Of a stretch of 64,000 nucleotides of DNA, positions 29,507 through 41,613 are shown one piece after another. Each line of letters begins with the position of its first letter. The stretch's first letter is position 1. The notes below the pieces were generated by a model. It was not told where the DNA came from. It did not search any database and saw only the letters and a list, made by a program, of their open reading frames with translations. Source of the DNA: Sinorhizobium psoraleae (GTDB lineage: Bacteria; Pseudomonadota; Alphaproteobacteria; Rhizobiales; Rhizobiaceae); assembly GCF_013283645.1 (NCBI RefSeq), contig NZ_JABEKV010000001.1, positions 1,580,146-1,644,145 of the forward strand, read 5' to 3'. The translations under genes were made by a program, and so were the position numbers.

Positions 29507-30817
29507 ATGGCAAAAATTACAGTGGCGTCGAACTACTCGCTCAATATGAGCGACTTCGATTTCAGCGCGATCTATTACGGGTCTTCGTATGTGCAGTCAG
29601 GAACGCTGTTCCGCGTCAACTACGGCGACGGAACGGTTGAGGAGTTTCGTGGCACTGGGTTCGCTTATAATGCCTATGGGGAGCCAATTGCGGGCACGGT
29701 GACGAGCTACGCTGCCTTTTATGGGGGCCAGCGGCTGTTTTACGTGGAAGGCGGAAGCGTCGCGGCGACTAAGATTGTTGCGGCGGCTAACACTTACAGC
29801 ACGAGCGATGACCTTGGAGTAATCACCGAGGTCCTGAAGGGCAATGACTCAATCAGCGGCGGCAATCTCGCTGATGTGCTCTTGGCCTTTGACGGCAATG
29901 ACATCATCAACGGGAACGGCGGAAACGACATCCTCTGGGGCTACGCCGGCAACGACACGATCATCGGTGGGACCGGAGGTGACGAGGTCAACGGCGGCAC
30001 TGGAGTCGACACCGCCTCCTACGCGACCTCTACGAGAAACGTCGTCGCAAGCCTGGCGAACTCGGCAATCAACTCGAACGATGCCTTGGGCGACAAATAC
30101 ATCTCGATCGAGAACCTGACGGGTACCAATTACAACGATACACTGTATGGCAATGCCGGCGCCAACACACTGAGCGGCGGGGTAGGGAATGATGTCCTTG
30201 TCGGTGGTGCAGGCGCCGACGCACTCTACGGTAGCAGCGGCACGGACACCGTCTCCTACGCGACAGCGACGATCGGCGTGGTCGCCAATCTCACCAGCGT
30301 TGCGGCGAACACCAACGACGCCAAGGGCGATGTCTACTCTCTGGTCGAGAACCTCATCGGCACGAACTATACTGACAAGCTCTACGGTAACGCGAGTTCC
30401 AACGCGCTGACCGGCGGCTCGGGCAATGATGTGCTTGGCGGGTATAGCGGCAACGACCTCCTTTATGGCGGCGCGGGTCGTGATCTTCTCACCGGCGGCG
30501 TCGGCGCCGATCGGTTCGTCTTCAAGGCACTCTCCGAATCGGCCGGAGCATCGTTCGACTCGATCTACGACTTCATGCCTTCTGAACTGGACAAGATCGA
30601 CCTATCGGCGATCGATGCCAGTACGAAATTAACGGGTAACCAAGCGTTCAGCTTTGTCGGCACGGCGGCGTTCAAGGGCGTTGCCGGGGAACTGCGTTAC
30701 GACAAGCTCGCTTCTGATACCTACATCTACGCTGATGTGAATGGCGATAAGGTTGCCGATCTCAAGATCCACTTGGATGACGCTGTTACCCTGACGAAGG
30801 ACTATTTCGTCCTCTGA
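29507..30817 (+). CDS. RTX / hemolysin-type calcium-binding protein
   Basis: 436 residues without Sec signal, expected to be exported by a type I system through its C-terminus. Clusters of GGxGxDxLxG nonapeptides lie at about 124-165, 215-240 and 295-340 (for example GNGGNDILWGYAGNDTIIGG, GGSGNDVLGGYSGNDLLYGG). The last about 95 residues resemble the serralysin-type C-terminal domain (DKIDLSAIDA, ending TKDYFVL). No protease zinc motif is present, so it is not a serralysin; adhesion or surface binding is a guess. No T1SS genes are nearby. It is a host-type cargo gene inside the prophage. Confidence 0.88.
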   Translation: MAKITVASNYSLNMSDFDFSAIYYGSSYVQSGTLFRVNYGDGTVEEFRGTGFAYNAYGEPIAGTVTSYAAFYGGQRLFYVEGGSVAATKIVAAANTYSTSDDLGVITEVLKGNDSISGGNLADVLLAFDGNDIINGNGGNDILWGYAGNDTIIGGTGGDEVNGGTGVDTASYATSTRNVVASLANSAINSNDALGDKYISIENLTGTNYNDTLYGNAGANTLSGGVGNDVLVGGAGADALYGSSGTDTVSYATATIGVVANLTSVAANTNDAKGDVYSLVENLIGTNYTDKLYGNASSNALTGGSGNDVLGGYSGNDLLYGGAGRDLLTGGVGADRFVFKALSESAGASFDSIYDFMPSELDKIDLSAIDASTKLTGNQAFSFVGTAAFKGVAGELRYDKLASDTYIYADVNGDKVADLKIHLDDAVTLTKDYFVL

Positions 30818-30832
30818 GGCGACGAAAATGAA

Positions 30833-30854
30833 AAGCCCCGCTTCGGCGGGGTTT
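30833..30854. terminator. Bidirectional-type terminator between RTX gene and minus-strand operon
   Basis: CCCCGC (30836-30841) and GCGGGG (30846-30851) with a short loop. On the minus strand it is followed by CTTTTC, and it sits 8 nt beyond the shifted-frame stop of the converging small gene; on the plus strand GTTT follows, 18 nt after the RTX stop. Confidence 0.65.
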
Positions 30855-30862
30855 GCAGGAGC

Positions 30863-31070
30863 TCATTCTGGCCGCTGATATTGCGGCACCCATCCACGCG
30901 TTATACCGCGGCTCATGGCGGCCTCGGCGAGCGACATGCTCGCGCAAATGCCTGCAATCCAAAAGCAGCGTAGCGATGGTCGCGCGCGGATCTTCGTCAT
31001 GCCAGGCGAGGGCGGCTTCCACTTCCCAGTCTAGATCCGTCGCCTGTTCTTTCTTCGCAGTCATAGTCAT
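30863..31070 (-). pseudogene. SOS-operon second gene, apparent +1 frameshift
   Basis: From ATG at 31070 (overlapping the upstream stop as ATGA) the frame reads MTMTAKKEQATDLDWEVEAA...TLLLDCRHLRE. It then continues as an unlikely Arg-rich tail through the terminator and into the RTX gene (stop 30786). In the +1 frame the sequence after the LRE region reads SLAEAAMSRGITRGWVPQY and stops at 30865-30863, 8 nt before the terminator. That ending resembles small rhizobial proteins of the DWxVEAAL...DPRAxIxTLL...LA-x-SRGxTRGW type as I recall them. Either a true frameshift mutation, a programmed shift near 30965-30945, or a sequencing error. Confidence 0.55.
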
Positions 31071-31237
31071 TGCAGGTTCAAACTCAGTTGCACGCCTCGG
31101 CTCGGCACTGGCAGCGGCTTGCTGGTGTCGATGCGGCCGAAGATCTCTTTTCTTCGCCGGGCCTCGCGTTCCCTTTTTGCACGCAATGATGCCAGGACAG
31201 ACTGGGCGCGCTTAATAACCTCTTCGCTGCGATTCAT
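31067..31237 (-). CDS. Small basic protein, first gene of LexA-box operon
   Basis: 56 residues read by hand: MNRSEEVIKRAQSVLASLRA, then a run of Arg/Lys/Glu (coiled-coil-like) and a C-terminal SRGVQLSLNLQ. A perfect GGAGG lies 5-6 nt before the ATG at 31237. A near-consensus promoter with a LexA box overlapping its -10 element lies immediately upstream, so it should be induced by DNA damage. Its stop overlaps the next gene as ATGA. No known family recognised. Confidence 0.75.
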   Translation of the reverse strand: MNRSEEVIKRAQSVLASLRAKREREARRRKEIFGRIDTSKPLPVPSRGVQLSLNLQ

Positions 31238-31255
31238 GAGAACCTCCGTTGCGAT

Positions 31256-31290
31256 GTTCTTATTTTGTTCTCATTTCGGAGCGCAGTCAA
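31256..31290 (-). promoter_or_regulatory. SOS promoter: LexA box overlapping sigma-70-type promoter
   Basis: GTTC (31256-31259), 7 nt, GTTC (31267-31270) is the exact alphaproteobacterial LexA site GTTC-N7-GTTC (GAAC-N7-GAAC on the minus strand). On the minus strand TTGACT (31290-31285), a 17-bp spacer and CAAAAT (31267-31262) form a good promoter whose -10 lies inside the box. LexA bound here would block RNA polymerase. It controls the 31237/31070 gene pair. Confidence 0.8.
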
Positions 31291-33715: not shown

Positions 33716-35026
33716 ATGACGGAGCTAACGCAAAAACAATCGAGAGTTCTTCTTTCATATGCGGCTGCGATCTTCAAACCGAAATCCCTTATCGTCCCGC
33801 GTTCAATCGGGGATATTCCGAAAGATAAAACGTTATTGCGGGAACTGAGAACTGGAGCGGGGGAGACTATCTACCTGACTGACCACGGTCTTTCCAATTT
33901 CGAGAGAACAGTCGAGTTGATAGACAAATGCGATTATTTCGAGGGAAAGGCTGAATACTCTGACATCTGGGGTGCATGGAGGAAAGTAGTTGAGGGCTGG
34001 CTGGGCCGTCGGGAGATGCCTGAGAGCGCCAATGAAGTTCTGGATGCCGTCTCATCCTGTCTGAACCTCGAAATGCGATCCCATAATTTCCTGGTTCCGG
34101 TGTCTGGAGCCGTGTTGAACAAGGAGAGTTCATACCAAGTTGGGTCTATGACGATATTGCGTGACCCGGTTAGCTGGCTGGAGTCGGCCGGAGTTTCTTG
34201 CAACTCTTCAGAGATCACTTCGCTGCTCAAGGCAAGTGGCGGCAGGCTTTGGCTCCTGGGCTCCGCATATGGCACCGCCAAAGTGGCGCGACGTATGTTC
34301 TCCGAGTATGCTGCATTAACCATTGGTCTGCTGGCGATTGCGGCCGCCTCAAAATACGAACACGGCGCTGCGGGGTTCCGGATAAGTACTGGTATGACAG
34401 CCGAAGACGCTCTCGGGAGATCCGCATGGATGTCTTGGGACGAAACCGAAAAAGTTCTCACTACAAACTATACATTCCCTAGAGGTCAGCCCTTTGCGGT
34501 AGATGCTGAATTATCGCAAGACTCGGACGGGATGCAGATGATTCAACTTGCATTCTCAATCTTGGACAAAGCCGAAAAAACTGAAGTCGAAGTGGCGATA
34601 GGAAGGGCGGTATACTGGTTCTACGATGCGCATCGCGATTCCGCACTGGTCATGAGAATGGTAAAATACTGGAGCTGCGTAGAAGCGTTCTTCTCTCTCG
34701 AAAGAGAACGTATAACACACAGCGTTTCGTCTGGACTTGCAAGCATTCTGACATTTGGTGGGTTTAGATTTGTTGATGTAGATAAGTATAGCGAGACGAA
34801 GAAAAATATTAGCCAATTGTATGACTTGAGGTCGCAAGCTGTTCATCGAGGTGACCATCGGCATGTTACGGAAGAGAATGTCGCTCAGTTTAGCCAGTGG
34901 GTTGCTTGGATGATTATTGAAATAACTTCTTTGTCAGCCTGCGGATACACGACACTTCAGCAACTCAAGAGAGAGGTGGATCGCCTAGATAGCATCGCCC
35001 TGCCCACCCAAGATGGCAGAGCTTAG
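33716..35026 (+). CDS. ApeA-like HEPN-domain protein
   Basis: 436 residues with AGAGGGG upstream of the ATG. The C-terminal domain has YWSCVEAFFS and LYDLRSQAVHRG; R372-x4-H377 is the catalytic RX4-6H motif of HEPN ribonucleases. Overall layout (N-terminal beta-rich region, C-terminal HEPN) resembles ApeA/Abi-type HEPN proteins. Codon use is visibly more AT-rich than the phage structural genes, suggesting separate acquisition. Prophage location suggests anti-phage defence, possibly by cutting RNA; this is inference. It converges on a second HEPN gene. Confidence 0.75.
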   Translation: MTELTQKQSRVLLSYAAAIFKPKSLIVPRSIGDIPKDKTLLRELRTGAGETIYLTDHGLSNFERTVELIDKCDYFEGKAEYSDIWGAWRKVVEGWLGRREMPESANEVLDAVSSCLNLEMRSHNFLVPVSGAVLNKESSYQVGSMTILRDPVSWLESAGVSCNSSEITSLLKASGGRLWLLGSAYGTAKVARRMFSEYAALTIGLLAIAAASKYEHGAAGFRISTGMTAEDALGRSAWMSWDETEKVLTTNYTFPRGQPFAVDAELSQDSDGMQMIQLAFSILDKAEKTEVEVAIGRAVYWFYDAHRDSALVMRMVKYWSCVEAFFSLERERITHSVSSGLASILTFGGFRFVDVDKYSETKKNISQLYDLRSQAVHRGDHRHVTEENVAQFSQWVAWMIIEITSLSACGYTTLQQLKREVDRLDSIALPTQDGRA

Positions 35027-35046
35027 GCACCGAACGGCGGGCTGCC

Positions 35047-35286
35047 TGTGCGTTTATGGCGCATGGCCAGAGCATGTTCGAAAAGGCCACCTCCAGAGCC
35101 GCCAGATCCGATGCCAGCGCGCGTCGACCCCTTCGGAAGAATGCCGTCTTCACCGAGCCACTGCTCATCGCCGATGTCGAGTATCGTGCCTGGACCGATG
35201 ATTGGAAGCTGCGGCACGCGTCATTCAAAAGGGGGAGGGAGGATGATGCCGCGGTATTTGAATTGTTACTATCAGGACGGAGGTAA
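35047..35286 (+). pseudogene. Remnant of LigD ATP-dependent DNA ligase C-terminus
   Basis: In the frame of ATG 35056 the translation has FTEPLLIADVEYRAWTDDWK and LRHASFKRGRED-DAAVFEL, matching the C-terminal OB-fold end of LigD-type ligases as I know them (usually EPxLVAEVEYRAWTDDGKLRHASFKGLRE). Only about 70 codons remain; adenylation and polymerase parts are absent. G-to-W and G-to-RG changes in otherwise fixed places fit decay. It overlaps the end of the converging HEPN gene by 15 bp. Confidence 0.65.
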
Positions 35287-36135
35287 AACGCGGAATAACA
35301 AAGTCAATCTATCGTCTATACCTGCAGAGCGGTGCCAGTCTCTATCGGAAACTACCTCGAAAGTGAGCTCCAGTTGCTCACCGACGTGTACATTCTCGAT
35401 CGGCACGACCGCTTTGGTGCCACTGTGCTTGTCGTACCCGTAAAGCGTCCAAGAAACCTCATACCCACTGCGATCGAATGTCTGATCGACCTCGACCTCG
35501 GCGACGAGGGTTTCTCCCGGATACAAATCTCCCCGACCGTGGCGTCGCCAATCGATGTTGCGCGTTGATATGTCTGTAGGGACGCCCTCAAGTCTGCTTT
35601 CGTTACCCAGGCTGTCGATGTATCTGACGAACATCGGAACGTCATATTGGCGAGCCATACTCTGCTCCCGAAAGAAGGCTTTGACGGCGTCTGAAAGATC
35701 GTTTGTGTAGCATATGGCCTGCTCGAGTTGTCGAACACTACACGGCCTGCCATGCTGAAGATCATTTCTAATCGCAATCAGACGATCCAGGAATAATTCG
35801 CACTGCTCTCTGCCCAATGGATATGCACTGTGCAGTGCCGGCCTAAAATGCTGCCCCCAACGATCGACGTGGCAGATAATTTTCTTCGTCTGTTCGAAAG
35901 ATGTGGCGTCGACTTCACGAGCATACCTTGCTGGATCGGACGCTATTTTCACCTTAAGCTTTTCGGTTTCAGGCTTTTTGAGAATGCCGCCGGTTGTCAA
36001 ATAACTGGCGCCGCGTGCAGCGTGCAATTGATGGTGAATCAGCTTCCTGAGCCAGCTCTCGGCCGCGTCAACGTATCTACGCGCGACGGTTGTTCGTCCA
36101 GCATCATCAAGGCTATTGGCTGCGACTATATCCAT
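35272..36135 (-). CDS. Second HEPN-domain protein (Swt1-like HEPN) with beta-rich C-terminus
   Basis: 287 residues from ATG at 36135, chosen because GGAG lies about 8 nt upstream; ATG 36159 is possible. Residues 20-170 are helical with RLIAIRNDLQHGRP; R123-x4-H128 is the HEPN catalytic motif. The C-terminal about 110 residues are beta-rich (GETLVAEVEVDQTF, YEVSWTLYGYDKHSG) and may be a sensor or binding domain. Converges tail-to-tail with the ApeA-like HEPN gene across the LigD remnant. Confidence 0.7.
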   Translation of the reverse strand: MDIVAANSLDDAGRTTVARRYVDAAESWLRKLIHHQLHAARGASYLTTGGILKKPETEKLKVKIASDPARYAREVDATSFEQTKKIICHVDRWGQHFRPALHSAYPLGREQCELFLDRLIAIRNDLQHGRPCSVRQLEQAICYTNDLSDAVKAFFREQSMARQYDVPMFVRYIDSLGNESRLEGVPTDISTRNIDWRRHGRGDLYPGETLVAEVEVDQTFDRSGYEVSWTLYGYDKHSGTKAVVPIENVHVGEQLELTFEVVSDRDWHRSAGIDDRLTLLFRVLPPS

Positions 36136-36210
36136 TAGGGCAGCTCCGTGATGCCGCATCGGACCGCCTGTGGTTGAGCGGCCCTGCCCCCCAACAAGAC
36201 CTTGCTGCGA

Positions 36211-41298: not shown

Positions 41299-41613
41299 AT
41301 GCGCTATCGTTCGAGCTATCAGCGTCCAAAGCGGCTGTCGATCCTATCGTTCCCAGGCCTGTTGATCGGCGCGGTAGCCGTTGGTGCGGCCGGTGGCATG
41401 ACAGCATCGGACTTGATCGCCTCATTGGGCGGCGGCACAGGCGGAACCTGCAACATCAAGGGCAACGTAAGCATCAACACCGGAGAGCGGATATTCCACG
41501 TTCCTGGCCAGCGGTATTACTCGCAGACGAAAATCAGCCCGCAATACGGGGAGCGCTGGTTCTGTTCGGAGTTCGAAGCCTGGGCGGCTGGTTGGCGCAA
41601 GTCGAAAGTGTGA
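41299..41613 (+). CDS. ExoI-like small protein, membrane-anchored
   Basis: 104 residues. One N-terminal transmembrane segment (FPGLLIGAVAVGAAGGM), then CNIKGNVSINTGERIFHVPGQRYYSQTKISPQYGERWFCSEFEAWAAGW, the characteristic tail seen in rhizobial ExoI/thermonuclease-family proteins without the nuclease part. Likely periplasmic. The ATG start gives the full TM segment. Confidence 0.7.
   Translation: MRYRSSYQRPKRLSILSFPGLLIGAVAVGAAGGMTASDLIASLGGGTGGTCNIKGNVSINTGERIFHVPGQRYYSQTKISPQYGERWFCSEFEAWAAGWRKSKV

Follow-up and report, generated by a model that had tools for sequence, protein, structure and literature searches.

A small LexA-box-associated gene of Rhizobiaceae encoding a candidate sliding-clamp ligand, with one copy in a Sinorhizobium psoraleae prophage

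A 56-aa protein (gene 1; Table 1) encoded in a prophage region of the 64,000-nucleotide stretch of Sinorhizobium psoraleae DNA surveyed in this study (the window) ends in a peptide that matches the published pattern of beta-clamp-binding motifs, and a LexA-type box overlaps its promoter. The C-terminal pattern, which was absent from the preliminary description of this DNA, is the main functional clue. Judged from its distribution, gene 1 appears to be mainly a host SOS-type gene of Rhizobiaceae, the prophage holding one copy of a mobile branch. With moderate confidence, its product is considered a DNA-damage-induced sliding-clamp ligand competing with polymerases at DnaN. A role as clamp ligand is suggested because the tail matches the published motif, because Hda and Pol IV carry similar motifs, and because AlphaFold predicts a helix followed by a disordered tail.

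Table 1. Position of gene 1, its start signals and gene 2 within the window.
Feature	Position	Strand	Basis
Gene 1, 56-aa basic microprotein	31067..31237	-	ORF, homologues, predicted structure
Predicted beta-clamp-binding peptide QLSLNL, residues 50-55, one residue from the C-terminus	31073..31090	-	
-35 element TTGACT	31285..31290	-	sequence
-10 element CAAAAT, 17 bp from the -35 element	31262..31267	-	sequence
LexA-type box GAACAAAATAAGAAC, overlapping the -10 element, 33 bp 5' of the gene 1 ATG	31256..31270	-	
Ribosome binding site GGAGG, 5 nt from the gene 1 ATG	31243..31247	-	sequence
Gene 2 reading frame, 94 aa in its present form, ATGA overlap with gene 1	30786..31070	-	
Gene 2, conserved N-terminal part, profile positions 1-48	30927-31070	-	
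Gene 2, conserved C-terminal part in the other frame, profile positions 46-69	30866..30937	-	

Natural clamp-binding motifs have been described as Q-phi-x-[L/M][F/L] and Q-phi-x-[L/M]-x-[F/L], and in some clamp partners, including Pol IV, the motif sits in the C-terminal tail (PMC11139829). The clamp motif of Hda is QLSLPL (PMC3836487), a peptide which, when placed in DnaQ, is a strong clamp binder (PMC4478557). The window protein has the C-terminus QLSLNLQ, and the pattern Q[LM]x[LM]x[LF], which lies within the published definition, was found in all 76 distinct gene 1 loci; it ends one or two residues from the C-terminus in 47 of these and is followed by 5-32 residues in 29. Amongst the 109 window ORFs of 50-75 aa, only gene 1 contains it. 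A six-residue motif can be misread, and since the profile searches include the tail, matches possessing it are favoured; the LexA-type box was no part of the searches by which the gene 1 loci were found.

Of five host Y-family (PF00817) proteins, one ends in VAPQLRLAL, in place and pattern as in gene 1, two show internal look-alikes only (QLDLLL and QLCLEL) and two have no motif fitting the definition; neither of two host DnaA-domain proteins has one either. No LexA-type box was found upstream of the DinB gene with the QLRLAL tail. In the same genome, a GTTC-N7-GTTC box lies close to the start of a DinB-type gene (G000:C67:90610-91056; L174) whose product contains QLDLLL internally. A divergent branch of four proteins (L131, L132, L133 and L135) shares the gene 1 helix and has the tail QLHF[IV]F, outside the strict motif. 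These are the weakest matches to the family, over residues 1-37 only, and three of the four have a box 60-89 bp upstream; these proteins may bind the clamp despite their departure from the definition.

The preliminary description of gene 1 as a basic 56-aa ORF with a well-placed ribosome binding site ahead of the ATG at 31237 holds good, with 14 K/R against 6 D/E. In the AlphaFold model a single helix (residues 3-33) is followed by a low-confidence tail with no secondary structure (block pLDDT 62, 57 and 49), and the clamp-motif candidate sits within this predicted accessible, disordered stretch. Gene 1 is under purifying selection, with a median dN/dS of 0.14 over 130 pairs with dS of 0.05-2, taken from 19 core sequences and their first 45 codons. 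In an alignment of 22 members, the motif residues Q50 and L53 never vary and L51 and L55 hardly do; in the helix, R22 and R29 are invariant and E23 nearly so. That the helix arginines are as invariant as the tail lends something to the alternative that the tail is coincidental and gene 1 is some other SOS product, for example an inhibitor of division or of a topoisomerase; SidA is a precedent for small proteins under LexA control that have other targets. Against this, the motif positions have been kept although the members are only 32-64% identical to the window protein, and the clamp definition fits every distinct locus, which makes a coincidental tail decidedly improbable.

The conserved basic helix is also what speaks for a clamp adaptor, in which the helix would bind either DNA or a partner (possibly the product of gene 2) while the tail would bring the protein to the clamp, aiding repair or translesion synthesis. 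No DNA-binding domain was recognised in gene 1 by Pfam or NCBIfam, which tells against it. Such an adaptor is considered unlikely, but competitor and recruiter cannot be separated by sequence, and recruitment is the main rival of competition for the clamp.

In agreement with the preliminary view that neither product is a known SOS protein, gene 1, gene 2 and their relatives have no Pfam or NCBIfam match at the curated cut-offs, and neither window protein has a PHROGs match at E up to 0.1. Candidate assignments to known families (BRD4_CDT, ATP synthase gamma and CbiG) were rejected as sub-threshold noise, and 15 matches from a PDB profile search, among them armadillo designs, TRPM4, an ATP synthase gamma chain and a prostaglandin receptor entry, were judged to be helix noise. 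An open-access literature search gave no account of the gene 1 family among the matches listed; subscription papers were outside its scope, so this is no proof of absence.

The box stands in the promoter as first claimed, GTTC-N7-GTTC overlapping the -10 element of TTGACT-N17-CAAAAT. It reads GTTCTTATTTTGTTC on the plus strand, and its position over the -10 element is fit to block the gene 1 promoter. GTTC-N7-GTTC is the alpha-proteobacterial LexA site (PMC3323433), and repeats of the same type precede the genome's own lexA (GAACACATATGGAAC) and recA (GAACAAGAATCGAAC). A single box before gene 1 is weak evidence alone: the window contains seven exact matches against 2.16 expected (sd 1.43), a number reached in one of 100 shuffles, and the whole genome has 252 in 7.43 Mb compared with 199 for a reversed control pattern. 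The evidence from the box is strong because it is conserved at homologues, rather than from the single-site count. Within 110 bp of the ATG an exact GAAC-N7-GAAC, in either orientation, was found in 73 of the 76 distinct loci, where chance would give about 0.3% per 110 bp (from the genome-wide count). Of these 73 loci, 68 have the box between -28 and -34, and 69 have TTGAC 14-26 bp ahead of it. Conservation of the box at homologues, which the preliminary description had proposed as a check on its own claim, is thus borne out. The three loci without a box within 110 bp (L020, L043 and L050) are all of mobile type, L050 being the damaged C11 copy of the window's own genome. From the site and its conservation we infer that LexA would repress the gene 1 promoter.

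These counts are based on 84 loci (L010-L056, L088-L092, L097, L098 and L100-L129), reduced to 76 by the removal of duplicates and encoding 74 distinct proteins of 54-87 aa. L114, one of the 84, gave no match in the count, although a box and QLSLNF are present at this locus. The counts exclude the viral copy of identical sequence (L001), the record from S. meliloti (L099), fragments (L057, L058 and L130), matches taken as spurious (L093-L096 and L134), the four matches over residues 1-37 only and the named contigs (L059-L087, many of which duplicate genome loci).

Single-sequence searches with gene 1 returned one protein, the gene itself, and one viral contig of identical sequence; its relatives came to light when whole genomes were searched and profiles were used. 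With the 56-aa protein as query, homologues were found in each of the 33 searched genomes of the genus, among them that of the window; the genus is taken as Sinorhizobium/Ensifer because the named contigs matching the same loci are mostly of these names. The window's own genome has the prophage copy, a copy on C23 with its own box and the damaged C11 copy, and in S. meliloti 1021 a homologue with promoter, box and tail is located on pSymB (NC_003078.1:278662-278844). The notion of one fixed locus for the core gene proved true only within clades. At the family level gene 1 was found in 38 of 297 genomes and 13 of 109 genera, five of the 38 genomes matching weakly; at the order level nine of 297 genomes matched, four of them by weak matches judged spurious; at the class level none of 336 other genomes had gene 1, the own genome being the sole match of 337. 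Absence outside the genus is nevertheless soft, because only about 20 candidates were scored per genome. A profile of 29 members reached 89 protein-database clusters, including ones from Rhizobium and Agrobacterium; those listed with a name are called 'hypothetical protein' or 'Uncharacterized protein', and one also carries the UniRef label 'Transposase'.

The preliminary description had placed the unit between RTX and lysis genes, and this setting is confirmed by RTX repeats (PF00353, E 4.1e-30) and an endolysin (phrog_7, E 1e-52), with tail fibre proteins that also match PHROGs. It was this position that favoured a prophage-specific operon linking host DNA damage to lysis or RTX secretion. 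As an account of the gene, however, a prophage operon is too narrow given the homologues in every searched genome of the genus, and the supposed tie to RTX or lysis is not supported: gene 1 lies on the opposite strand with its own promoter, a tblastn search of 50,697 phage records (E up to 1) gave no homologue, and the loci L040-L135 share none of this phage's tail or lysis genes. A prophage-specific role is therefore considered extremely unlikely.

The IMG/VR contig (L001) contains the identical stretch, shares tail and lysis genes with the window phage and is probably the same element. The idea that mobile gene 1 copies travel in this phage was rejected, as no other copy among L040-L135 shares those genes; of the 3-kb loci L011-L022, the comparison covered those for which a longer copy was also available. 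Three loci (L042, L062 and L064) share one gene of the window (41299-41613, about 68% identity) and a weaker one, and one mobile gene 1 copy has an IS1595 transposase nearby. Prophage gene 1 is best seen as a cargo gene, likely to be under host SOS control. Beyond the lysis genes, at 33716-36159 of the window, are two genes of 436 and 295 aa with no Pfam match, which are possible further phage cargo.

The claim of a coupled second gene survives in part. The ATGA overlap and the start at 31070 are present, but gene 2 is not intact in the window, where a frameshift missed by the preliminary description splits its conserved domain over two frames; its apparent length of 94 aa results from this frameshift. 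The IMG/VR contig has gene 2 in the same two reading frames, and it also looks shifted in the mobile copies L017 and L018. A conserved, overlapping gene 2 of about 64-93 aa follows gene 1 in most mobile copies, and is also found at four loci from another genus of the family (L089, L091, L092 and L104). The mobile copies L011-L014 and L040 showed no such gene, and the core Sinorhizobium copies have no intact gene 2 within 80 bp downstream of gene 1, so a next-door partner is not required. For the clamp adaptor this evidence cuts both ways: the overlap at many loci and the linkage of LexA boxes to gene 2 alone favour it, whereas the core copies argue against it.

The overlap of the two genes in many mobile copies could also be read as a toxin-antitoxin pair similar to SocAB, with gene 1 as a clamp-blocking toxin and gene 2 as its antitoxin, SocB and RipA having been described as toxins that act on the clamp. 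Gene 2, however, is not an obligate partner, as gene 1 persists where it is absent or looks shifted, in the window, at L017 and L018 and in the core copies; gene 2 is also found alone behind its own box, and SOS repression rather than an antitoxin would need to keep gene 1 off. Such a pair is accordingly held to be very unlikely.

An exact box was found within 420 bp upstream in 16 of 30 loci of the gene 2 family, including the window and three other gene 1 loci, which indicates that gene 2 belongs to a LexA-box-linked family of its own. One relative was modelled as a two-helix hairpin, for which Foldseek gave no significant PDB match; in view of this model and the Foldseek result, a UBA-like domain, suggested by a match of a distant relative to PF19026 that was below the cut-off (E 0.0099), was rejected. 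In the window's own genome a gene 2 paralogue (G000:C1:1765279-1765458; L166:2875-3198) lies behind GAACATAATAAGAAC, the box being 126 bp upstream, with no clamp-tail gene ahead, and makes up a second unit of SOS type. Boxes were also seen upstream of gene 2 relatives in other families of the order, in Sinorhizobium phage phi2LM21 (L179), where the related genes are near LigD and YedK genes, and in Agrobacterium phage Rivra (L180), where a different 79-aa protein comes first. Small proteins with EVEAVLAEFDGD..AIRALLDD from another family of the order (L141, L143, L144 and L163) have exact boxes at -44 to -66, and similar proteins at L145-L147 and L150 have no box within 420 bp. The EVEAVLAEFDGD..AIRALLDD proteins appear to form a broader family linked to SOS, with a distant relationship to gene 2.

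Competition for the clamp is preferred because no catalytic or binding domain is recognised in gene 1 and because the gene is kept without gene 2. On this reading the LexA-type box would keep gene 1 off until the SOS response; after damage the protein, predicted to be a basic helix that a flexible linker connects with the clamp motif, would accumulate, and its QLSLNL tail would fill the DnaN cleft in competition with Pol III, Pol IV, ImuB/DnaE2 or Hda. Forks would be slowed, or polymerase exchange biased, until repair is complete. In the prophage, gene 1 would be a mobile duplicate that is switched on together with the host SOS response, and during induction it could affect replication of either the host or the phage. 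It is an open question how bacteria pass the clamp from the replicase to repair and translesion polymerases in the SOS response; if the proposal is true, a damage-induced clamp-peptide microprotein would be a direct regulator of that hand-over, and a mobile element would be equipped with a copy of a host replication regulator.

Several known systems resemble gene 1 in part. Hda, the RIDA factor, and its counterpart HdaA also have a clamp hexapeptide close to one terminus (QLSLPL in the E. coli protein and QFKLPL in that of Caulobacter), but there the motif is N-terminal in a larger protein, whereas in gene 1 it is C-terminal in 56 aa. Hda carries an AAA+ domain. Pol IV (DinB) shares the C-terminal clamp motif, as in the DinB-type protein of this genome that ends in QLRLAL; unlike Pol IV, gene 1 has no polymerase domain and is almost only helix and tail, and no box was found ahead of that DinB gene. 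In the alpha-proteobacterial LexA regulon GTTC-N7-GTTC likewise overlaps promoters, and the part of the comparative LexA study drawn on here gives parE, tag, comM, dnaE and splB as extra members and names no such small alpha-proteobacterial gene (PMC3323433). The nearest functional precedents found are SocB of Caulobacter and RipA of pneumococcus, which have been described as acting on the hydrophobic pocket of the clamp and disturbing replication; these are toxins with antitoxins, whereas the partner of gene 1 is dispensable and the gene 1 promoter has a LexA-type box. Among eukaryotes, the PCNA ligands p21 and PAF15 also occupy a clamp by a short motif, the PIP box, but protein, clamp and regulation are unrelated and the comparison is an analogy only. 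PAF15, like p21, is a ligand of PCNA. It is a tentative proposal, rated at somewhat below an even chance, that Rhizobiaceae have a counterpart to the p21/PAF15 idea, in which a LexA-controlled helix with a clamp tail would serve as a replication brake or polymerase-exchange switch, and prophages or plasmids with captured copies could seize the host clamp at induction.
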